Of a DNA stretch of 33,660 nt, positions 9,611 to 23,424 are shown one piece after another. The stretch spans positions 1 through 33,660 of the forward strand of contig JALFIB010000259.1 of assembly GCA_022776305.1 (NCBI GenBank). Reading direction: 5' to 3'. The notes under the pieces were generated by a model. The model was not told the DNA's origin and ran no database searches. It worked only from the letters and a program-made list of their open reading frames with translations. How positions within the stretch are numbered: position 1 is the stretch's first letter; the number at the start of each line of letters is the position of its first letter. The stretch is from Lachnospiraceae bacterium. Lineage in GTDB: Bacteria; Bacillota; Clostridia; Lachnospirales; Lachnospiraceae. The translations under genes and the position numbers were made by a program.

Positions 9611-10771
9611 GTGTTAGAGATTATGTCAAATGAAACGGAATCTGCTGCAAAGATTATTGTGATCGGTGTAGGCGGAGCCGGTAATAATGCAGTAAATAGA
9701 ATGGTTGAAGATACAATCGGAGGCGTTGAGTTTATCGGAGTGAATACAGATAAACAGGCACTGCTTCTGTGCAAGGCACCGACTACGATCCAGATCGGTG
9801 AGAAAGTGACAAAGGGACTTGGCGCTGGTGCAAAGCCGGAAGTTGGACAGCAGGCAGCTGAAGAGAGCGCTGAGGAGATCCGTCAGGCGATTCAGGGAGC
9901 AGATATGGTATTTGTTACCTGCGGCATGGGCGGCGGTACAGGAACGGGAGCAGCTCCTGTAGTTGCCGGTATTGCAAAAGAGATGGGTATCCTGACAGTC
10001 GGCGTTGTGACAAAGCCGTTCCGCTTCGAAGGAAAGACTCGTATGAATAATGCACTTTCAGGTATTGAAAGACTGAAAGCAAATGTAGATACCTTGATCG
10101 TGATTCCAAACGACAAGCTTCTTGAGATCGTAGATCGCAGGACTACGATGCCTGAGTCATTGAAGAAAGCTGATGAAGTACTCCAGCAGGCAGTACAGGG
10201 TATTACAGACCTGATCAACCTGCCGGCACTGATCAATCTTGACTTTGCTGATGTACAGACTGTCATGATCGACAAGGGTATTGCACACATCGGTATCGGT
10301 CAGGCGAAGGGCGATGACAAGGCTTTGGAAGCTGTAAAACAGGCTGTATCCAGTCCGCTGCTTGAGACTACCATCGAGGGCGCTACCCACGTTATTATCA
10401 ATATTTCCGGAGATATTTCTCTTATCGACGCAAATGAAGCAGCAAGCTACGTTCAGGAGTTGGCTGGAGAAGACGCGAATATCATCTTTGGTGCTCTGTT
10501 TGATGATACATACGCTGACGAAGCTAGCGTTACAGTCATCGCAACAGGCCTTGATGATAAGAACAATATAAAAGAGCAGCCGAAGAGCAAGAGTTCTGCA
10601 CCGGATTTCAGCTTCATGAGAAGAGAAAGCTCTGCATCACAGCAGTCTTCCTCATTCCAGAAGGCGCCTACGACACCGCTTCGTGCACCGCAGCTGAATA
10701 CGATGCGTATGCCGGAGAGCAAGGTACAGGAAAAAGATATCCAGATTCCGGATTTCTTAAAAAGAAACTAA
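9611..10771 (+). CDS. ftsZ: Cell division GTPase FtsZ
   Basis: Tubulin-like GTPase that forms the cytokinetic Z ring (386 aa). The GTP-binding signature GGGTGTG is at residues 107–113 and the N-terminal loop is [15 protein letters not shown]. The synergy loop [11 protein letters not shown] supplies catalytic Asp residues to the next subunit. After a variable linker (about residues 325–375), the C-terminal peptide [10 protein letters not shown] is the docking site for partners such as FtsA and SepF. Start GTG 9611 is chosen because AAAGGAGGAAATACA precedes it and the frame upstream has no family similarity. It is separated from ftsQ by an inserted 7-kb sugar operon, has its own promoter, and ends in a strong terminator. 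Confidence 0.98.
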
Positions 10772-10799
10772 GCTTAAAGTAAATAGAAAAGCGTAAGAA

Positions 10800-10836
10800 A
10801 GCGCTGTGTGGCATAACTGCCGCATAGCGCTTTTTT
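10800..10836 (+). terminator. Terminator after ftsZ
   Basis: Stem of about 14 bp between AGCGCTGTGTGGCA and TGCCGCATAGCGCT with a TAAC loop and six T. It lies between convergent ftsZ and aroE and may also slow aroE transcripts from the other side, where the T-run is poorer. Confidence 0.9.
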
Positions 10837-10847
10837 CAGCTTCCTGC

Positions 10848-11714
10848 TTATTGGAAAAATTTTTGCCGTATCTCTTCCACAGGCATTTCCTTTCCTGTCC
10901 AGATCTGAAAAGCTGCGGCCCCCTGATAAAGAAGCATGTACATGCCATTGGAGATCCTGCAGCCGGCATCCTGTGCTTCCAAAAGAAGCTTTGTACGGCG
11001 TGGATTATAAATGATATCAGAGACCAGCAGGTCAGGATGGAAACAGGAAGTATCCTGCACGGGGGAAGCGTCTGTATTTGGCGCCATGCCTATGGAGGTG
11101 GCGTTTGTCAAAAGAAGGCTGTCCTTGATGCATGCTTTCACGGCCACTCCTTTTGCCATATCAGTCACATCAGCTTTGCAGCTTGTGTTTTCATTGATCA
11201 GGTCAGCAAGGCGGAGGGCGTTATCCCAGGAACGTCCCCTGCGGTTTACAATATGTAAAACGGGAACTCCGTCGAGGGCTGCCTGGATGGCGATGGAGGA
11301 AGCAGCACCCCCTGCGCCCAACAAAGTCATAGGGCCTGTAGTGGCATCATATCCCGTATCCTTTACAGACTGCATATATCCGATCCCGTCTGTGTTGTGC
11401 CCGATCAACCGTCCATCTTCATTTTTAACGGTGTTGACAGCTCCGATCATCCGGGCAGCGGGAGAGAGTTCATCTAGATAGGGAAGGATCCGTTCTTTAT
11501 CCGGCATGGTGAGATTAAAACCATAGACATTCATTTCTTTTAAGGTCTGGACCATTGTCTTTAAATCTGCATTTTTCGTATCGAAGCAAAGATAGACACA
11601 ATCAAGGCCAAGAATCCGAAATGCTTCATTATGCATCATCGGTGAAATACTGTGTGAGACGGGTGTGCCCAGCAGGCAGCCCAGTCGCGTGTGTCCTGTG
11701 ATCTGGTAAGCCAT
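10848..11714 (-). CDS. aroE: Shikimate dehydrogenase
   Basis: NADPH-dependent enzyme of aromatic amino acid and chorismate synthesis (3-dehydroshikimate to shikimate), 288 aa, cytosolic. Substrate domain: GTPVSHSISPMMHN, the catalytic Lys in NLTMPDKE, GAVNT, and GHNTDG with the partner Asp. NADP domain: LLGAGGAASSIA, followed by NRRGRS, a usual sign of NADP preference. C-terminal GMYMLLYQGAAAFQIWTG is typical. AGAGGAGG sits 9 bases before ATG. It is the only minus-strand gene in this stretch. The partner gene aroD lies 1.5 kb away on the other strand, so the two are not one operon. A partial MITE copy lies in its upstream region and could affect its promoter. Confidence 0.95.
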   Translation of the reverse strand: MAYQITGHTRLGCLLGTPVSHSISPMMHNEAFRILGLDCVYLCFDTKNADLKTMVQTLKEMNVYGFNLTMPDKERILPYLDELSPAARMIGAVNTVKNEDGRLIGHNTDGIGYMQSVKDTGYDATTGPMTLLGAGGAASSIAIQAALDGVPVLHIVNRRGRSWDNALRLADLINENTSCKADVTDMAKGVAVKACIKDSLLLTNATSIGMAPNTDASPVQDTSCFHPDLLVSDIIYNPRRTKLLLEAQDAGCRISNGMYMLLYQGAAAFQIWTGKEMPVEEIRQKFFQ

Positions 11715-14084: not shown

Positions 14085-14142
14085 AAATAGGGAAAACAGT
14101 CCCTGATTTTGACAAAAAAGAGCACCCCCTGTGGAGTATACT
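14066..14142 (+). promoter_or_regulatory. spoIIG-type promoter: Spo0A-like boxes and TTGACA-N22-TATACT
   Basis: TTGACA (14109–14114) and TATACT (14137–14142) are separated by 22 bases. This is the exceptional spacing known for the Bacillus subtilis spoIIG promoter, which sigma-A polymerase uses only with phosphorylated Spo0A. Upstream, AGTCGAA (14066) and AGTCGGT (14076) lie exactly 10 bases apart and resemble tandem 0A boxes (TGTCGAA). TTTGACA overlaps the -35 as a further near-match on the other strand. The start would be near 14149, giving a short leader of about 24 bases before spoIIGA. Confidence 0.8.
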
Positions 14143-14168
14143 GAAGACAGTTGCTTCCACAGGGGGTG
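14123..14168 (+). terminator. Terminator-like hairpin after aroD, covering the spoIIGA ribosome binding site
   Basis: A perfect 13-bp stem CACCCCCTGTGGA/TCCACAGGGGGTG with a 20-base loop, followed by TTTTG. The 3' arm contains AGGGGG, the ribosome binding site of spoIIGA. Transcripts coming from aroD would stop here or have the site buried. Transcripts from the spoIIGA promoter begin within the loop and lack the 5' arm. Confidence 0.8.
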
Positions 14169-14172
14169 TTTT

Positions 14173-14949
14173 GTGTATTACGAGTTTTACATAGACCAGT
14201 TTTTTGTGGAGCATTTGCTGACCGGATATCTTCTGCTTCGCATGACGGCAAAAAGACAGAGGGCTGATGTAAAGGCTTTACGTATTTTGGCAGGCAGTTT
14301 TGCCGATACAATCATTATGACACTCTGTATATGTACAGGCATTTTTTGGTGCCGCTTCCTTGGGATGTTTTTTGCGGGAACCATATTATTTGCCGGAAAA
14401 GGGAAAAGGCAGTACATAAGCGGGATAACATCACTGGCGCTGGTGAGCGTTACATTCGGAGGAGCCCTGCAGATCCTCACCCGTATTTGGGGGATACCGC
14501 TGCTTCTGGGAGTCTTGCTCACGGTCCTGTTATTGGAACGTGCAGGGACATACTGGGATAAGCAGAAATGGGAAATACTTAACAGGACAGAAGTGCAAAT
14601 TGCTTTAGGCGGAAAAACGGTGGCAATAACAGGGATGGTGGACACTGGAAACCAGCTTCGGGAACCCCTCACAGGGAGGCCGGTCAGTATTGTGGAGGAA
14701 ACTGCAGTGGAAACACTGCTGGAGAAGGACTGGGAGAGGAAGATCGGGTTTTGCCTGATCCCCTATCATAGCCTTGGAAAGGACAAAGGATGGATGCGCG
14801 GTGTGACAATGGACCGCATGATCGTGGGACGGGGAGATGGGAGGATCATAATATCGGATCCGGTGCTTGCGCTTTATACAGGAAAAGTCAGCGCCGGGGA
14901 GAATTACCAGATCATCCTGCATCCGCAGCATGCCGTGACAGAAAAATAG
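14173..14949 (+). CDS. spoIIGA: Sigma-E processing protease SpoIIGA
   Basis: Membrane aspartic protease that removes the pro-sequence of sigma-E in the mother cell after asymmetric division (258 aa). The N-terminal half has about five hydrophobic segments (residues about 8–135). The cytoplasmic C-terminal domain has the active-site motif GMVDTGNQLREP with Asp157. Start GTG 14173 gives an N-terminus VYYEFYIDQFFVEHLL, as in the family, and follows AGGGGG by 6 bases. An upstream ATA/ATG-free frame to 14131 would begin inside the hairpin and is rejected. The gene is 15 bases from sigE, forming the conserved spoIIG operon. In Bacillus, activation also needs a forespore signal protein (SpoIIR), which is not in this window. 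Confidence 0.95.
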   Translation: MYYEFYIDQFFVEHLLTGYLLLRMTAKRQRADVKALRILAGSFADTIIMTLCICTGIFWCRFLGMFFAGTILFAGKGKRQYISGITSLALVSVTFGGALQILTRIWGIPLLLGVLLTVLLLERAGTYWDKQKWEILNRTEVQIALGGKTVAITGMVDTGNQLREPLTGRPVSIVEETAVETLLEKDWERKIGFCLIPYHSLGKDKGWMRGVTMDRMIVGRGDGRIIISDPVLALYTGKVSAGENYQIILHPQHAVTEK

Positions 14950-14964
14950 AAGGAGGAACACAAA

Positions 14965-15705
14965 ATGATTGTAAAAATTGCTGTGCCGCAGCGCTTTCAA
15001 TTTAAGATGGCGGCAGGATTCGGAGATATTTTTTTCAGAAAACCGGGTGATACCCATTACATAGGAGGAACAGAAGTACTGCCTGCACCTTTATCACCGG
15101 AGCAGGAGCAGGAGTTTCTCGGAATGCTGGGAAAAGAAGGGGAGGCAAAAGCCAAAAGCCAATTGATCGAGCACAACCTCAGGCTGGTGGTATACATAGC
15201 GAAAAAATTTGATAATACGGGTGTGGGAGTGGAAGACTTGATTTCCATAGGGACCATCGGGTTGATCAAAGCCATCAATACCTTTAACCCGGATAAAAAG
15301 ATCAAGCTGGCTACTTATGCATCCAGATGTATTGAAAATGAGATTCTGATGTACCTGAGGCGCAACAGCAAAACAAAAATGGAAGTCTCCATCGACGAAC
15401 CGCTGAACGTCGACTGGGATGGAAACGAACTCCTTTTATCGGACATACTGGGAACAGACGAGGATGTGATCTACAAAGATATGGAATCGGAGGCGGAACA
15501 TAAATTGCTGCAAAAAGCAATAGAGCGTTTATCCGACCGGGAAAAGACCATTGTGCAGCTGAGGTTTGGTATTGATACGAACGACGGGGAAGAGAAGACG
15601 CAAAAAGAAGTGGCAGACCTGCTGGGAATTTCCCAGTCCTATATTTCCCGTCTGGAGAAAAGGATCATAAAGCGTCTGCGCAGAGAGATCGTACGGTTTG
15701 AATAA
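14965..15705 (+). CDS. sigE: Mother-cell sigma factor sigma-E (pro-form)
   Basis: Early mother-cell sigma factor of sporulation, made as an inactive precursor (246 aa). The first about 32 residues are the membrane-associated pro-sequence. The cut is expected near DTHYIGG, by comparison with the YYIGG site of Bacillus. Region 2 ([26 protein letters not shown]) contacts core and the -10. Region 4 ends with the helix-turn-helix [29 protein letters not shown] precedes ATG 14965. It is co-transcribed with its protease gene. The sigma-E-like promoter found upstream of the YlmC/YmxH gene at 16.98 kb is a probable local target. Confidence 0.98.
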
Positions 15706-15765
15706 TATTGTCAAGGTCTAATAATTTTTATATTTTTTTGGAAGCCGAATAATCGGGAGCCATTG

Positions 15766-15810
15766 TGAGAATCATTTTACCAGAAGATACTTTCAGGAGG
15801 ATGATTCTCA
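15766..15810 (+). promoter_or_regulatory. Leader hairpin around the sigG ribosome binding site
   Basis: TGAGAATCAT (15766–15775) and ATGATTCTCA (15801–15810) are perfect 10-bp complements. The loop holds the ribosome binding site AGGAGG, and the last stem base is the A of the start codon. Such a structure should dampen translation. A leader stem that tunes sigG expression is known in Bacillus subtilis, so this may be the functional equivalent. Confidence 0.7.
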
Positions 15811-16589
15811 TGGCACTGAATAAAGTAGAGATATGCGGTGTGAACACGTCAAAGCTGCCCATCTTGACGGGAGAAGAAAAGGAATTCCTGTTTGAACGGA
15901 TCAAGGCAGGTGATGAAAATGCACGCGAGCTGTACATTAAAGGAAACCTACGGTTGGTTTTAAGTGTGATCAAACGCTTTTCCGGCAGCAATGAGAATGT
16001 GGACGATCTATTCCAGATCGGCTGCATCGGCCTTATGAAGGCGATTGATAATTTTGATACCAGCCTGAATGTAAAATTTTCCACATATGCGGTTCCCATG
16101 ATCATAGGGGAGATACGCAGGTACCTGCGGGACAACAATGCCATCCGTGTAAGCCGGTCACTGAGGGATACGGCATACAAGGCGATATACGCAAAAGAAA
16201 ATTATACAAAAAAGTATTTAAAAGAACCTACCATACATGAGATTGCAGCAGAGATCGGAATACCGAAGGAGGAGATCGTATATGCCATGGATGCCATCCA
16301 GAGCCCGGTCAGCCTTTACGATCCCATTTATACAGAGGGCGGCGATGCCTTATATGTTATGGACCAGATCAGCGATAAGAAGAATAAAGAAGAAAACTGG
16401 GTAGAGGTTATTTCGCTGAAAGAGGCCATGAAACGTCTGGATGAGAGAGAAAGGCATATCATAGAGCTGCGGTTTTACGAGGGAAAGACCCAGATGGAAG
16501 TGGCTTCGGAGATCGGGATCTCGCAGGCCCAGGTGAGCCGTCTGGAGAAAAATGCATTAAAATGTATGAAAAATTATCTGCGCGCATAA
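15810..16589 (+). CDS. sigG: Late forespore sigma factor sigma-G
   Basis: Directs late forespore genes (spore coat peptides, germination, DNA protection). 259 aa, like the Bacillus protein. It opens with MALNKVEICGVNTSKLP, the hallmark VEICGV start of sigma-G. Region 2 has DDLFQIGCIGLMKAIDNF and KFSTYAVPMIIGEIRRYL; region 4 ends with ISQAQVSRLEKNAL. ATG 15810 is supported by AGGAGG nine bases upstream; the longer frame to 15765 begins in the leader stem. It lies 104 bases after sigE in the conserved order. No clear sigma-F/G promoter could be recognised in that gap, so read-through from spoIIG limited by the leader hairpin may matter. Confidence 0.98.
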   Translation: MALNKVEICGVNTSKLPILTGEEKEFLFERIKAGDENARELYIKGNLRLVLSVIKRFSGSNENVDDLFQIGCIGLMKAIDNFDTSLNVKFSTYAVPMIIGEIRRYLRDNNAIRVSRSLRDTAYKAIYAKENYTKKYLKEPTIHEIAAEIGIPKEEIVYAMDAIQSPVSLYDPIYTEGGDALYVMDQISDKKNKEENWVEVISLKEAMKRLDERERHIIELRFYEGKTQMEVASEIGISQAQVSRLEKNALKCMKNYLRA

Positions 16590-16624
16590 AGGAAGCGCTT
16601 CATAGGGAACGTACCATTAACCCA

Positions 16625-17610: not shown

Positions 17611-17668
17611 GCATAAACTTAAAGTTTCATGAATATCGGAAGAAAGGTTGCACCAAAAGGGTGGTCAG

Positions 17669-17677
17669 TGTTATACT
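17669..17677 (+). promoter_or_regulatory. Extended -10 promoter of the three-gene unknown cluster
   Basis: TGTTATACT is an extended -10; the -35 is weak. The start would be about 20 bases before ATG 17704, so the leader is short. Confidence 0.5.
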
Positions 17678-17703: not shown

Positions 17704-20700
17704 ATGGAATTGAAAAGAAGAATTGAACAATTATTAAACGGAATATTTGAATATGAACAGCCTCATCTTGTGGCAGAACCGCAGGAGATCTTCCTCACGG
17801 CAAGGCCCGGGGAGGCAGCCCACGGAAGTTTCCGTTTGGAAAGCGAAGACCAGAGGAAAATAAAAGGTTTCCTGTACACTTCCAGCCCACGGATGATCTG
17901 TGAGCCGATGGAATTTCAAGGACTTGTAAGCGAGATCCATTACCAGATGGACTGCAGCGGTCTGGAAGAAGGGGCAAAAGAGGATGGGACGATCACGGTC
18001 TGCAGCGATATCGGCGAATATGAGATCCCTTTTCATGTCAGTGTAAAGGGAGGAGAGCATAGCCGGGAACCCATCATGCTGGAGGAGTTTTCAGAGTTTG
18101 TGAAATTGGCGCGTGAGGATTACCAGAGAGCTTACCGCGTCTTTTTGTCAACGGGATTCCACAGCTTTCTTGCAGAGAAGGAGCCGGAGCTTCTGGGATT
18201 GTATGAGAGCTTGATGGCAGGGGAGAAGAGCTACCACTGTATGGAAGAGTTCCTGACAGGATCGGGTAGGAAGGAACCGATTGAGCTTGCTGTGGAGCGG
18301 GATTCTTATGTGCACAAGGATCTTGCGGAGCCTATTCAGGAGACGATCCGGATCGGAAAAAATACATGGGGCTTCCAGAAGATAGAGATCAGCTCTGATG
18401 CACGTTTCCTGCGCCCGGAAAAAAGGATTTTGGGGACAGATGAATTTGCCGGCAGCACTTATGATCTGAATTTTATTTTAGATACAAATTTGATGCATGC
18501 AGGAAATAATTATGCCCGCCTCACGATTTCTACGGGGATCCAGACCTTGGCTATTGAGATAAAGGCACAAAGGGCAGGCAAGGCAGCATCTGCCAAAGGA
18601 TACCATATTTGTAAGATTATGCGTAAAGAGCTGGAAAGCTTGTATGTGAGCTTCCGGCTGAAAAAGATAGATCTGACCACGTGGGTAGAGCGTTCTGTCA
18701 GCGTGATCAACAGCTACCGCAGGGCCGGAGGGGATGACCCCTTTGCGGAGCTGTTCCTTGTACAGCTTTATTTTGCTGACGGGAAAAAACAAAAAGCTTA
18801 TAAAATACTGGAGTCTATGGAATCGCAGAAGTATCGTCTGAATACACCGGAGCGATACGGTTTTTATCTGTATATGTCCACCTTTTTCTACCATGAGGTT
18901 TCTTATGTGGACCGGGTGGAGGAAGAGATCACGAAAATGTTCTACCGGGATAAGACAAATTGGAAGCTCCAGTGGATCCTGTTATATTTGAAAGAATCAC
19001 TGTTAAATGATGAAAATGCAAAGTACGAGGCTATCGCGGAACAGTTCCGGTATGGCTGCCGCAGCCGCATCATGTACCTTGAGGCCTATCAGATTTTAAA
19101 GGACAACCCCTATTTGATGAGGCGTATCGGAGCTTTTGAGCTGCAGCTTCTCCGTTTTGCGGCACAGGAGGGTGTCCTGACTGCAGAGGTGGTACGTCAG
19201 GCTGCAGGGCTGGCACTCCATCAGGACAACTTTGACCAGCGTTTGTATGAGGTGCTCACTGCCGGATACCAGCTGTATCCGTCTTCCGAGCTTGTGAAAG
19301 CCATCTGTGTGCTGCTGATGCAGGGAGATAAGAAGGACAGCGGCTGCTTTAAGTGGTATGCCAAGGGCGTGGAAGAAGGGCTGCGCATCACGGGCCTTTA
19401 CGAATACTATATGGAAACCATGGATAATCTGGACATGCAGGAAATGCCTCAGGTGATACGGATGTACTTTGCTTACGATAATACCTTAGACTACCGGAAG
19501 CGTGCCGCTATCTACCGAAATATTATAGAAAAGCGTGATAAAGATGCACAGACGTACCATCATTACCGGGCGGCGATTGAAAAGTTTGCGGTAGACCAGC
19601 TGGAAGCAGGCCATATTTCTGACGATCTGGCAGTTATTTACAGCACATTCCTGCGGAAGAATATGCTCACAAAGCCTACTGCAGAAAAATTGGTCCGGCT
19701 GCTGTTTACCTGCGAAGTGACATGCACCAGCCCGGATGCCCAAAAGCTGATCCTCTATACCAACAGGCTTTTGCAGGAGCAGACTGCAGTATTCGTAGAG
19801 GGGACTGCGTATATCCCTATCTACGATCAGGACAGCGTGCTGCTGGTGGAGGATTCCAAGGGGCATCGCTATCAGGCTTCTTTCTCCTGTAGGAGCAGAA
19901 GGATATTTGAGTCGGAAGAAATGCTGGCCTGGTGTGCACAGAAAGCGCCGGATTGCACAGGGCTTCTGCTATACCTGTGCTCCCAGTGCCTGGAAGCAAA
20001 ATTGGTCAACAAAAATACACTGGCCTTTTTCAGAAGGGCAGCACAGCGGAAAGAGTTTTCGGATACCTTCCGCAACGAGATCCGCAAAATACTCCTTCAG
20101 TATTATGCGGAGCATACCCGTGACGAATCATTGCCGGAATTTCTGGAAGAGATCCCATATCTGGAATATGTGCAGGTAGACAAAACTGCCTTGATCACCA
20201 TGCTGGCGGAAGAAGGAAAATGCTCCGACGCATTCTCACTGCTGGATGCTTACGGTGCAGAAGGCATTCCTCTGCTGCAGCTGGTGCGTATCTGCAGCCG
20301 CATGGTGCTGGAACTGGAGTTCGAAGAAAATACAATGCTTGTGTCTTTGTGCCATTACTGTTTCAGCAGCGGGAAATACGACGATAAACTGCTACGCTAC
20401 CTGCTGTTATACTATGAAGGGCCTGTGCGGGAAATGAAGCTTTTATGGCAGGCAGCAGTAAAATTTGACCTTGATACCATGCTGTTAGAAGAAAAGATCA
20501 TGATGATGATCCTTTTCACAAGAAGCGGTACGAAAGGGTCAGAGCCGGTCTTTGAATCCTATGTGAGCAAAATGGGCCGCAAAAGGATATGCAAGGCCTA
20601 TGTGAATTTGAAGTCTTATGAATACTTTGTGAAAGGGATCCCAGTGGCTGCTTCTGTGTTCCAGTATATTGAACGGGAATACAAGTATCTGGAGCCAAAG

Positions 20701-21267
20701 GGAAGGCTGGATGAACAGGAACAGGTGTGCCGTCTTGCCCTGCTGCAGAACTATGCAAAAAAGGTGGAGCTGAACCGTGAGCAGAGACAGCTGGTTTCAG
20801 CGATGCTGGAGGAGTTCGGGGCAAAGGGAATGCGGTTTGCGTTCTGGCAGAGTTTTGATAAAGAGCTATTGATGCCTTACCAGATGGATGGAAAGGTTTT
20901 TGCAGAGTATGTGTGCAGCCCGGAAAGCAAAGTGAGCATTTACTACCGTATGCGCGGAAAAGAAGAATCCTACACAAAAGAAGATGTGAAGAATTATTTT
21001 GAGGGCATTTTTGTGCGGGAATTCACGCTTTTTTCCGGAGAAGAACTGGAATGCTATATTGAAGAAGAACTCGGAGGGGAAGTAAAGCGCTCCGGTATCC
21101 GCGTGCTGCGTGCATCGGATCCGTCGGAAGAAGGAAGTTCCAAGTATGCATACCTGAACAGGATATCAAAAGCGCAGCACTCAGGTGACGAAGCACTGCT
21201 GCAGTCTGAATTGGAATCCTACCTTACCATGGAATATCTGACGCAGGAAGTGTTTACACTGGTATAA
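17704..21267 (+). CDS. Giant conserved protein of unknown function (DUF5717-like)
   Basis: 1187-aa cytoplasmic protein with no signal peptide or membrane segment. I recall this family as DUF5717, common in Lachnospiraceae; function unknown. By eye there are two beta-sandwich-like parts. The first is at about residues 20–118 (EIFLTARPGEAAHGSFRLES … GEYEIPFHVSVKG). The second is at about 195–300 (IELAVERDSYVHKDL … TLAIEIKAQR). A long helical-repeat region with TPR/HAT-like spacing then starts near residue 305 with YHICKIMRKELESLY. Short beta inserts occur near 702–723 (AYIPIYDQDSVLLVEDSKG) and 1076–1130 (KVSIYYRMRG … FEGIFVREFTLFSGEEL). The shape suggests a scaffold. It is followed by genes for an Hsp70/actin-like protein and a TPR-like protein in the same direction. 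Confidence 0.85.
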   Translation: MELKRRIEQLLNGIFEYEQPHLVAEPQEIFLTARPGEAAHGSFRLESEDQRKIKGFLYTSSPRMICEPMEFQGLVSEIHYQMDCSGLEEGAKEDGTITVCSDIGEYEIPFHVSVKGGEHSREPIMLEEFSEFVKLAREDYQRAYRVFLSTGFHSFLAEKEPELLGLYESLMAGEKSYHCMEEFLTGSGRKEPIELAVERDSYVHKDLAEPIQETIRIGKNTWGFQKIEISSDARFLRPEKRILGTDEFAGSTYDLNFILDTNLMHAGNNYARLTISTGIQTLAIEIKAQRAGKAASAKGYHICKIMRKELESLYVSFRLKKIDLTTWVERSVSVINSYRRAGGDDPFAELFLVQLYFADGKKQKAYKILESMESQKYRLNTPERYGFYLYMSTFFYHEVSYVDRVEEEITKMFYRDKTNWKLQWILLYLKESLLNDENAKYEAIAEQFRYGCRSRIMYLEAYQILKDNPYLMRRIGAFELQLLRFAAQEGVLTAEVVRQAAGLALHQDNFDQRLYEVLTAGYQLYPSSELVKAICVLLMQGDKKDSGCFKWYAKGVEEGLRITGLYEYYMETMDNLDMQEMPQVIRMYFAYDNTLDYRKRAAIYRNIIEKRDKDAQTYHHYRAAIEKFAVDQLEAGHISDDLAVIYSTFLRKNMLTKPTAEKLVRLLFTCEVTCTSPDAQKLILYTNRLLQEQTAVFVEGTAYIPIYDQDSVLLVEDSKGHRYQASFSCRSRRIFESEEMLAWCAQKAPDCTGLLLYLCSQCLEAKLVNKNTLAFFRRAAQRKEFSDTFRNEIRKILLQYYAEHTRDESLPEFLEEIPYLEYVQVDKTALITMLAEEGKCSDAFSLLDAYGAEGIPLLQLVRICSRMVLELEFEENTMLVSLCHYCFSSGKYDDKLLRYLLLYYEGPVREMKLLWQAAVKFDLDTMLLEEKIMMMILFTRSGTKGSEPVFESYVSKMGRKRICKAYVNLKSYEYFVKGIPVAASVFQYIEREYKYLEPKGRLDEQEQVCRLALLQNYAKKVELNREQRQLVSAMLEEFGAKGMRFAFWQSFDKELLMPYQMDGKVFAEYVCSPESKVSIYYRMRGKEESYTKEDVKNYFEGIFVREFTLFSGEELECYIEEELGGEVKRSGIRVLRASDPSEEGSSKYAYLNRISKAQHSGDEALLQSELESYLTMEYLTQEVFTLV

Positions 21268-21328
21268 AAACAGGGATGATCTCTTTTTGAAAAGAAAAAG
21301 GGTACGGTCTCATAGTGGAGTAAAACAT

Positions 21329-22603
21329 ATGATACAAGCAACAAATGAACTGATCCTCGGGATCGAATTAAACAAAAATTTTGCCCAGATCACATATTTC
21401 CATCAGTCAGTCAAGGAGCCTGTGACCCTTGGCATGGCAGGAAGCGGGGATCAGATGATGATCCCTCCGGCGCTGCGCCAGAATGCGAAGGGACAATGGA
21501 TGATCTGGAACGGAGAGCCTGTGAAAGATGAGGAAGAGCCTGACCTGTTCAGGATCTCAGACCTGTTTGGCAAGCTGGAACGTCAGGAGGTTCTGGGAGA
21601 CGGTGAAAGGTCTTTTGAACCGGCAGAGCTTTTGACTATTTATTTTAAAGTGTGCATGTCCGGATTAAAGCTGCTGACCCATAATACAAAAGTCCATGTT
21701 ATGGTGACAGTGAAAGAGCTGACGGAGCGCTGGAGCAGTCTGATCGTCGAGGCGCTGGAGCGGAATAATATAGACCGGAAGCAGATTTATCTTCAGGATT
21801 ACTTATCGTCCTTTTATTATTATACGGTCAACCAAAAAAAAGAGTTATGGTATCAGGATGTGGCTCTTTTGGATTATGAGGAAGAGAGCATTGTGGGATA
21901 CGTGCTCCATATTGACAGGAGTACGCGGCCTGCCATTGCCAGAGCTCAGGAAGTAGCCAGACAGCCCATGGGAGACGCGGTGCGTGACGGACGGAGCGAC
22001 CAGGAGTGGAAAAAAGAAAAAGACAGGCTGTTTTTTGAGCTTCTGAAGAAAGTCTTTGAGCGGCGGACCATTTCTGTCAGTTATCTGATCGGTGATTATT
22101 TTAATAAGAGCTGGGCAGAGCGCTCTATTCAGTATCTCTGCTATAAACGCCACGCGTTTCAGGGGAAAAACCTTTATTCAAAAGGAGCGTGCTACGCGGC
22201 GATGGAGCGGGCAGGACTGATCCCGGGCCGGGACATCCTATTCGGCGGCCGTGATATGATCCAGCGCAATATCGGCATGGAGATGCGTATCCGCGGAAAG
22301 GACACTTTTTATCCCATGATCAGTGCGGGGATCAACTGGTATGAAGCCCATCATGTCTGCGAATTTATTTTAAACCATGAGCGGGAGATCAGGATCATCT
22401 CTTCTCCCATGGAGCCGGGAGAGAGCATTATACATGGGATGCGCCTGCCCGGGCTGCCGCCAAGGCCGAACAGGAGCACAAGGATCCGCCTTACGCTTTA
22501 TTTCTCTTCACCCACTACCTGTGTGGTTGAGGCGGAAGACTTAGGGTTCGGTGGATTTTACAGGTCATCCGGATTGAGCTGGAGCCGGACGATCAAGTTT
22601 TAG
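21329..22603 (+). CDS. Conserved protein with weak Hsp70/actin-fold resemblance (DUF5716-like)
   Basis: 424 aa, no signal or membrane segment. I recall the family as DUF5716. Residues 8–25 (ILGIELNKNFAQITYFH) resemble the phosphate-1 loop of the Hsp70/actin ATPases. Residues about 178–197 (VALLDYEEESIVGYVLHID) resemble the phosphate-2 strand pair. TVKELTERWSSLIVEALE and YLQDYLSSFYYY fit the helix and strand between them. The end (TRIRLTLYFSSPTTCVVEAE) resembles the start of an Hsp70 substrate-binding beta domain. The usual GGGTFD-type glycines are absent, so ATP hydrolysis is doubtful. ATG 21329 (GTGGAG upstream) is preferred over TTG 21287. It lies close behind the giant gene and 26 bases before the TPR-like gene, so the three are likely one operon. 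Confidence 0.78.
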   Translation: MIQATNELILGIELNKNFAQITYFHQSVKEPVTLGMAGSGDQMMIPPALRQNAKGQWMIWNGEPVKDEEEPDLFRISDLFGKLERQEVLGDGERSFEPAELLTIYFKVCMSGLKLLTHNTKVHVMVTVKELTERWSSLIVEALERNNIDRKQIYLQDYLSSFYYYTVNQKKELWYQDVALLDYEEESIVGYVLHIDRSTRPAIARAQEVARQPMGDAVRDGRSDQEWKKEKDRLFFELLKKVFERRTISVSYLIGDYFNKSWAERSIQYLCYKRHAFQGKNLYSKGACYAAMERAGLIPGRDILFGGRDMIQRNIGMEMRIRGKDTFYPMISAGINWYEAHHVCEFILNHEREIRIISSPMEPGESIIHGMRLPGLPPRPNRSTRIRLTLYFSSPTTCVVEAEDLGFGGFYRSSGLSWSRTIKF

Positions 22604-22629
22604 GTTCAAAAAACGGAAAGGATTCAAGT

Positions 22630-23424
22630 ATGAGTTATGATCTGTGCCTGCTGGGGCAGGCGGAGAAACCGTATTATATTGAAAATATCCGCACAGGGAT
22701 CTATTCTTTGGAGGAACTGTGCTTTTACCTTTACAACAACATCTGTTTGATCGACGATTCCATCATGAATGAAGGACTGTGCGACTGGATCCGGGATGAG
22801 CTGAAGCTGTCAAAATTATATAGGCAGTTGTATGAACAGCTGGAAAAGAGAGAAGGGGCAGCTTTTTTTGTCCTTCCCATCTTTCGGGAGGCCGGCTACC
22901 TGTCCCATCAGGAAATGAGGGAGTTTCAGGAACGGCTCACAAAGCTGGAGGTACAGTCGGAAGACATGAAACAGAAGCTGCGCGGCGACTATCTTGTGAA
23001 AGAAAAAATGTTTGGCCGGGCGATCTGGGAATACAGGCAGATTTTAAACAGAAAAAATCCGGGGAAGCTTGGCACGCAGTTTTATGCGGCTGTCTGGAAT
23101 AATCTTGGGGCCGCATATGCAGGGCTTTTCCAATTTAAAGAAGCCTCCCAGTGTTTTTGGGAGTCTTACGGGCTGATGAAAACGAAAGAGACCTTCCGGA
23201 AATACATCAGTACGCTGCCTCTGTTTTTGACGGAGGAGGAATACCAGAAAAAGCTGAAGGAGCTTCAGGCGGATGCGTATCTCGTCCAAAAGATCCAGGA
23301 ATACAATGCCAAGATCTGTACGCAGAAGTCCTTTTCCGATGAGCTTGAGCGGATGAAAAAACGGGATTCTGCTGAGATCGTGGAAGAATTAAAGGAAGAA
23401 TACTGTAGAAGTACGAAAATCTGA
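22630..23424 (+). CDS. TPR-like protein of unknown function
   Basis: 264-aa soluble, mostly helical protein. Residues 1–60 form a conserved-looking start (YDLCLLGQAEKPYYIENIRT and GIYSLEELCFYLYNNICL). Residues about 85–115 are likely coiled coil (EMREFQERLTKLEVQSEDMK). Residues about 118–190 hold two TPR-like hairpins: MFGRAIWEYRQILNRKN, then FYAAVWNNLGAAYAGLFQFKEASQCFWESY. The tail is charged and helical. ATG 22630 follows GGAAAGGATT. It is the last gene before the purF promoter. With its two upstream neighbours it makes a scaffold, ATPase-like and TPR set, which suggests a chaperone-type or assembly role, but that is inference. Confidence 0.82.
   Translation: MSYDLCLLGQAEKPYYIENIRTGIYSLEELCFYLYNNICLIDDSIMNEGLCDWIRDELKLSKLYRQLYEQLEKREGAAFFVLPIFREAGYLSHQEMREFQERLTKLEVQSEDMKQKLRGDYLVKEKMFGRAIWEYRQILNRKNPGKLGTQFYAAVWNNLGAAYAGLFQFKEASQCFWESYGLMKTKETFRKYISTLPLFLTEEEYQKKLKELQADAYLVQKIQEYNAKICTQKSFSDELERMKKRDSAEIVEELKEEYCRSTKI

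Follow-up and report, generated by a model that had tools for sequence, protein, structure and literature searches.

The window analysed here, 33,660 nucleotides from a Lachnospiraceae bacterium (assembly GCA_022776305.1, contig JALFIB010000259.1), carries on its forward strand three closely spaced genes whose products we call P1, P2 and P3. The central finding is that P2, a member of the Pfam family DUF5716, has the predicted fold of an Hsp70 and is, to judge from its sequence, dead as an ATPase. P2 lies between P1, a giant DUF5717 protein, and P3, a protein with tetratricopeptide repeat (TPR)-like features, and this trio is apparently a reduced form of a longer Hsp70 cluster found in other families of the order. 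DUF5717 and DUF5716, two Pfam families without assigned function, thus gain a structural identity and a history. Searches of open-licence papers turned up no mention of DUF5716 as an Hsp70 or of the longer cluster; nothing was found there on DUF5717, and the one DUF5716 match was unrelated, as far as its title and the start of its abstract indicate.

The Hsp70 fold and degenerate ATP site of P2

P2 (21329–22603 from an ATG; 424 residues) is a pseudo-Hsp70. Its longest reading frame would start at a TTG at 21287 and encode 438 residues, but close relatives favour the ATG. Residues 137–437 of the longer frame match PF18980 (DUF5716_C) at 321 bits (cut-off 34.7), which makes P2 a member of that family. 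The AlphaFold2 model (mean predicted local distance difference test score 90) is that of an Hsp70, with a nucleotide-binding domain and a substrate-binding beta-sandwich. An initial annotation, made from the sequence alone, had recognized segments of the Hsp70/actin type in this protein, and the model contains the fold rather than lacking it. The beta-sandwich occupies residues of about 303–423 and is followed by only about 10 more, so that P2 has no helical lid. By its model, P2 has both domain folds in common with DnaK and other canonical Hsp70s (PF00012), but it is without their catalytic residues, subdomain IIB and lid. PF00012 itself gave no match to the window's P2 in the Pfam scan; a P2 relative in the full cluster of locus L107 matches it at 79 bits, whereas the relative in locus L032 does not.

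To assess the degeneration of the ATP site, P2 and its relatives were aligned to the DnaK of the same species. The glycine-rich phosphate-2 motif, DLGGGT, is replaced by DYEEES, and its absence had been correctly noted in the initial annotation, as had the degenerate character of the ATPase. At the active-site positions, the window's P2 has E8, K11, N12, F13, F70, Y171, E196, E197, S199 and D342, and it keeps D194 and G341. The same picture holds for the family, which we compared as 18 proteins from full clusters and 88 of the Lachnospiraceae type, the latter being non-identical sequences of 370–470 residues from two fetched sets, with near-copies counted and locus L099 included. Lys70 is kept in none of these 106 proteins (0/18 and 0/88), Glu171 in four (4/18 and 0/88) and Thr11 in five (5/18 and 0/88). 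In the intact Hsp70s of the longer clusters, by comparison, the checked active-site residues are kept in 44 of 45 proteins at most positions, the 45th having a gap. At the adenosine site, 17/18 full-cluster proteins but 0/88 of the Lachnospiraceae type retain the second glycine; together with the pattern of catalytic residues, this suggests that the ATP site decayed in two steps. The genome of locus L099 (G185) is placed in another family, and its Lachnospiraceae-type trio reflects either transfer or contamination.

Subdomain IIB and the GrpE-tailed gene

A further lobe is missing from P2. Residues 203–285 of the species' own DnaK, which we take to be subdomain IIB by E. coli numbering, have a counterpart of only 11 residues in the window's P2, compared with 82 in that DnaK. 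The counterpart is 1–16 residues long (median 11) in 88/88 Lachnospiraceae-type proteins and 75–81 residues long in 18/18 full-cluster proteins, L032 standing at 75.

In DnaK, GrpE opens the nucleotide pocket through a rotation of subdomain IIB, according to a review (PMC4753570). The longer clusters include a gene for a GrpE-tailed protein, and this gene was found in 0/48 Lachnospiraceae genomes, as opposed to 90/97 of the other genomes of the order that carry DUF5717_N; it also occurs in three non-Lachnospiraceae genomes without DUF5717_N. These counts leave out, as weak, the matches in 11 non-Lachnospiraceae genomes (most of them short and to the C-terminal part; that in G235 to a middle stretch) and in five Lachnospiraceae genomes, where no more than a short stretch at the GrpE end is matched. 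The IIB lobe and the GrpE-tailed gene are therefore both present before, and both gone after, the same branch. This is a coincidence on one branch and not a statistical association.

Distribution of the trio

Relatives of P2 were sought in bacterial and archaeal genomes, and the best 80 of 546 stretches, ranked by likeness and mostly from Lachnospiraceae, were used. In these 80 loci the genes stand in the same order, with P2 in 80/80, P1 in 79/80 and P3 in 78/80; the missing cases are at contig ends, which also truncate some P1 genes. The neighbours around the trio differ between loci, and in the best 80 none of the tagged genes of the longer cluster, such as those for the cluster-type Hsp70s and the GrpE-tailed protein, was found beside it. 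The three genes thus stay together, as the initial annotation had anticipated, and its description of a three-gene cluster holds for the order of the trio; it was incomplete in that a fourth gene commonly follows and longer clusters exist elsewhere.

DUF5717_N was found in 145/295 genomes of the order (143 above cut-off) and in 48/48 Lachnospiraceae genomes, at one place in 47 of them and as two adjoining pieces in G298. The 48 genomes, 33 with and 15 without a match to the fourth gene, were counted as Lachnospiraceae on the strength of the named relatives. Across the phylum the domain occurs in 5/398 genomes, all in the window's family, and across the class in 11/291, ten in that family and one below cut-off, in line with the lineage restriction proposed initially. 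This distribution looks like that of a core gene of the Lachnospiraceae, and it suggests that the trio may serve some important process, so far undescribed, in this major family of gut bacteria.

The longer cluster and the descent of the trio

The longer cluster was read in 23 loci from other families of the order. Its typical order is the DUF5717 N-part (about 400 residues), the DUF5717 C-part (about 900 residues), Hsp70a, the GrpE-tailed protein, DUF5716, Hsp70b and Hsp70-vWA, which is an Hsp70 bearing a vWA domain; in some clusters the two DUF5717 parts are fused, and a P3-like gene is present in six loci. Several loci end at contig or fetch ends and are incomplete there. After filtering by length, these loci yielded 20 Hsp70a, 18 DUF5716, 15 Hsp70b and 10 Hsp70-vWA proteins.

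A quick tree search by maximum likelihood covered 70 proteins, among them 15 of the 88 Lachnospiraceae-type DUF5716 and 10 of the 20 Hsp70a proteins. In the resulting tree, DUF5716 and Hsp70b together form one group (support 100), DUF5716 alone forms another within it (support 100), and the DUF5716 of L032 adjoins the Lachnospiraceae type (support 100). The genome of L032 still holds the GrpE-tailed gene, Hsp70a and Hsp70b, as well as Hsp70-vWA in the form of a split frame. The simplest reading of these sequences would be that an intact Hsp70 was duplicated, that one copy died and that the intact copies were then lost in the Lachnospiraceae; a gain of the other cluster genes elsewhere is a formally possible alternative to loss.

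Hsp70s as such are not lacking in the Lachnospiraceae. Among the matches listed for 60 genomes, there are often several further Hsp70 genes of about 560–620 residues. Thirty such places were fetched from these listed matches, mainly those below about 470 bits and excluding other high-scoring DnaK types and fragments. All 30 scored highest on the DnaK profile and at most 303 on the profiles of Hsp70a, Hsp70b and Hsp70-vWA, whose own members score at least 850 there. The 27 that were long enough to place in a tree all fell outside a 35-member group of cluster Hsp70s (support 99), in a tree where two of the fetched genes are DnaK types and therefore keep the DnaK outgroup from being separated by a single branch. 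Thus, the Lachnospiraceae have other, ATP-using Hsp70s, and only the cluster types are lacking among the genes fetched. Twenty-two of the 27 (L202–L223), of lidded length (560–610 residues), form a group of their own, separate from both DnaK and the cluster types. In the window's genome, the Hsp70 search gave two DnaK-type genes and, weakly, a third match whose size is MreB-like; the second DnaK-like gene (G000:C224:7994-9709) scores 717 bits, beside one of 813 bits.

Several individual loci deserve mention. Hsp70 genes are missing from L108 and L116, where the DUF5717 pair is present, and DUF5717 is missing from L035, which has the genes for DUF5716 and the GrpE-tailed protein. The longer cluster can therefore be split, and in the family f5 of the order it seems to be spread over separate places. 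In L107, the Hsp70a (9710-11386) and Hsp70b (14979-16619) proteins have hardly any residues past the beta-domain, and the lid seems to be missing from these too. The Hsp70-vWA gene of L032 (4340-6396) consists of two overlapping frames, reflecting either a real break or a sequencing error. The recurrent neighbours of the longer cluster are an aminotransferase-like gene (identified by eye; 8/23 loci) and another family (7/23). A third set, of about 900 residues and in four loci, occupies the position of the DUF5717 C-part and probably represents C-parts that were overlooked by a single-sequence search.

A possible function for the trio

With slightly better than even confidence, we propose that P1, P2 and P3 form a cytoplasmic holdase or scaffold assembly with a catalytically dead Hsp70 at its centre. 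The initial annotation had also suggested a role as a chaperone or in assembly, and we infer it here again. The three proteins would bind one another, as their gene order suggests, with P1 serving as the scaffold and P3 as a TPR adaptor. By analogy with Ssz1 and Zuo1, the lidless beta-sandwich of P2 would hold a peptide, either of a client or from a segment of P1 or P3, independently of nucleotide. ATP-driven steps in the Lachnospiraceae, if any, would fall to the ordinary DnaK, and in many other Lachnospiraceae the product of the fourth gene, P4, might tie the assembly to the membrane. As to its origin, we would give an even chance to the following: on the Lachnospiraceae branch the ATP-burning Hsp70s and the GrpE-type factor of the machine disappeared, P2 lost the very lobe on which GrpE acts, and what was left became established as a core complex. 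An Hsp70 would thereby have been turned into a nucleotide-independent clamp, the ATP cycle being dispensable for the lasting function of this machine.

The nearest working analogue is Ssz1, which is described (PMC7083937) as lacking a lid, binding ATP without hydrolysing it, and using its beta-domain to bind both chains and a motif of Zuo1. P2 also has no lid and, without the catalytic residues, would be predicted not to hydrolyse ATP. It differs from Ssz1 in lacking subdomain IIB and in being bacterial, and the link to the ribosome belongs to Ssz1 as part of the ribosome-associated complex. If P2 is indeed independent of nucleotide, it would be a bacterial counterpart of Ssz1. In that case, the intact Hsp70b, the dead protein with subdomain IIB and the dead protein without it would provide a comparison series for the role of an Hsp70 without an ATP cycle.

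Several points weigh against this proposal. The association of P1, P2 and P3 is drawn from their gene order, and the binding of clients by the peptide groove of P2 is assumed. Ssz1 works with a J-protein, whereas Pfam scans of the trio and of a set of cluster proteins showed no J-domain family, partners encoded elsewhere not having been sought. Some ATP-site positions are partly kept in the 88 Lachnospiraceae-type proteins, namely Asp8 (63/88), Asp194 (27/88), Thr199 (11/88, as against 0/18 in the full-cluster proteins) and the first glycine of the adenosine motif (85/88), and may leave room for nucleotide binding without hydrolysis. Both trees came from quick searches and have long branches that may attract one another. 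Finally, P4 is present in only 33 of the 80 best-ranked P2 loci over the stretches read and is absent from the window's genome; since 47/80 loci are without it, a membrane tether is not general.

Alternatively, P2 could act on the ordinary DnaK in the way of Hsp110, as a regulator or exchange factor, with P1 and P3 as targeting subunits. Hsp110 retains ATP binding and its helical domain, whereas P2 has lost most of its ATP-site residues and ends about 10 residues past the beta-domain, and we therefore regard this reading as unlikely. Nor do we expect, other than with a small probability, that P2 is a structural block of a P1–P3 assembly that uses the fold alone and binds neither client nor nucleotide. 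That the ATP site and subdomain IIB were lost in steps would suit such a role, as would the strong conservation of the rest of the protein (18 invariant columns among 67 sequences), but a mere spacer would not need the length of its substrate-binding beta-domain preserved, as it is (106–123 residues).

The published gene set most similar to the longer cluster is that of the GAP1-N2 GTPase systems, which, according to their description (PMC7159879), carry an HSP70, GrpE, a second Hsp70 without a peptide-binding domain, and FNIII-DnaJ/TPR proteins. This shared list of parts (Hsp70, GrpE, a reduced and degenerate second Hsp70, beta-sandwich and TPR components) could suggest that the trio is a related conflict, or defence, system. 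It probably is not, and we see only a slim chance that it is. GAP1-N2 (PF20013) was found in 0/8 cluster- or trio-bearing genomes, with a positive result in the control, Corynebacterium glutamicum, and no GTPase family appeared in the Pfam scans of trio and cluster proteins. PADLOC gave no match for P1, P2, P3 or P4, and only partial, weak matches for two cluster Hsp70s. Moreover, the presence of DUF5717_N in every one of the 48 Lachnospiraceae genomes is core-gene-like, and P2 keeps the peptide-binding beta-domain that the second Hsp70 of the published systems lacks. A sporulation machine, which the initial annotation had considered and to which the spoIIGA, sigE and other sigma-factor genes upstream in the window might point, is very improbable and was rejected on distribution, since SpoIVA occurs in only 22/48 Lachnospiraceae genomes, all of which have DUF5717_N, the two are unassociated in the remaining 247 genomes of the order (74 with both, 23 with DUF5717 alone, 115 with SpoIVA alone and 35 with neither; odds ratio 0.98, p = 1; G228, E 6e-4, and G291, E 4e-4, left out of the SpoIVA count), and the neighbours of the trio vary among loci.

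P1, P3 and the fourth gene

P1 (17704–21267; 1187 residues) belongs to DUF5717 along almost its entire length, matching PF18984 (DUF5717_N) at 863 bits and PF18983 at 300 bits (cut-off 25 for each); the family identities of P1 and P2 given in the initial annotation were thus correct. So was the architecture of beta-sandwiches and long helical repeats, which is seen in the predicted model: an MSP/PapD-like beta-sandwich (residues about 22–114), a small helical bundle (129–186), a second beta-sandwich (195–290), an alpha-solenoid (294–667), a beta domain (669–733), a second alpha-solenoid (738–1059) and another beta domain (1064–1136) followed by terminal helices. Foldseek matches to P1 are of domain type only, with TM-scores of 0.06–0.16 normalised to the query; a closer look covered mainly residues 17–291, and the rest of the protein may match further families.

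P3 (22630–23424; 264 residues) combines TPR-like features with a conserved N-terminal region. Its family does match TPR profiles (among 49 aligned members, TPR_2 in 27 and TPR_1 in 26 at E 0.01, some reaching E 7.5e-7), but the best match of the window's own P3, TPR_1 at 19.7 bits (E 7e-4), is below the cut-off of 27.8. The P3 family profile matches the P3-like genes in 6/23 other-family loci with E values of 6e-58 to 4e-19, a count limited by the many loci that end at contig or fetch ends. Alignments A3, A4 and A5 comprise the window's sequence and 66/70, 53/72 and 48/67 eligible relatives, respectively.

In 45/64 Lachnospiraceae loci with a gene following P3, that gene belongs to the P4 family, whose members have about 395 residues, are coiled-coil-like and, in those scanned, have two adjoining hydrophobic stretches (an example, in alignment A6, is L082:13812-14990). 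At E 0.01, any one Pfam family matched at most 3 of 20 P4 members. Homologues of P4 occur in 151/295 genomes of the order, some of them without DUF5717, and in 33/48 Lachnospiraceae genomes, with no match in the window's genome. A relative is found in L032. Judging by coordinates, G024 has one immediately following its P3-like gene, and G047 has one close to the end of the cluster. Its patchy occurrence, together with its absence from the window's genome, rules out P4 as an obligate part of the assembly.

The locus in the window

The initial annotation had described three co-directional genes with short gaps, encoding soluble proteins, behind one promoter. The reading frames are all on the forward strand with gaps of 61 bases (P1–P2) and 26 bases (P2–P3), and none of P1, P2 and P3 shows a membrane-like stretch in a simple hydropathy scan. 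NCBIfam gave no usable match for any of the three. The single promoter fared less well. A probable promoter for the trio lies at 17648–17677 on the forward strand, with TTGCAC (17648–17653) and TATACT (17672–17677) separated by 18 bases; the TATACT and a TTGC-type hexamer are common to 8/18 aligned relatives. Visual inspection of the other 10 shows the nrdR frame ending a short way upstream in their place. A consensus scan for promoters and terminators was at shuffle level (8 promoter-like sites versus a shuffle mean of 7.7) and gave no forward-strand promoter-like site from nrdR to 17704.

Upstream of the trio are spoIIGA, sigE and another sigma factor (14131–16589) as well as nrdR. The genome, which is 89% complete, has no SpoIVA match, and the strain may be asporogenous or its assembly incomplete. 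Downstream, the trio is followed by purF-, purB- and purA-type genes.

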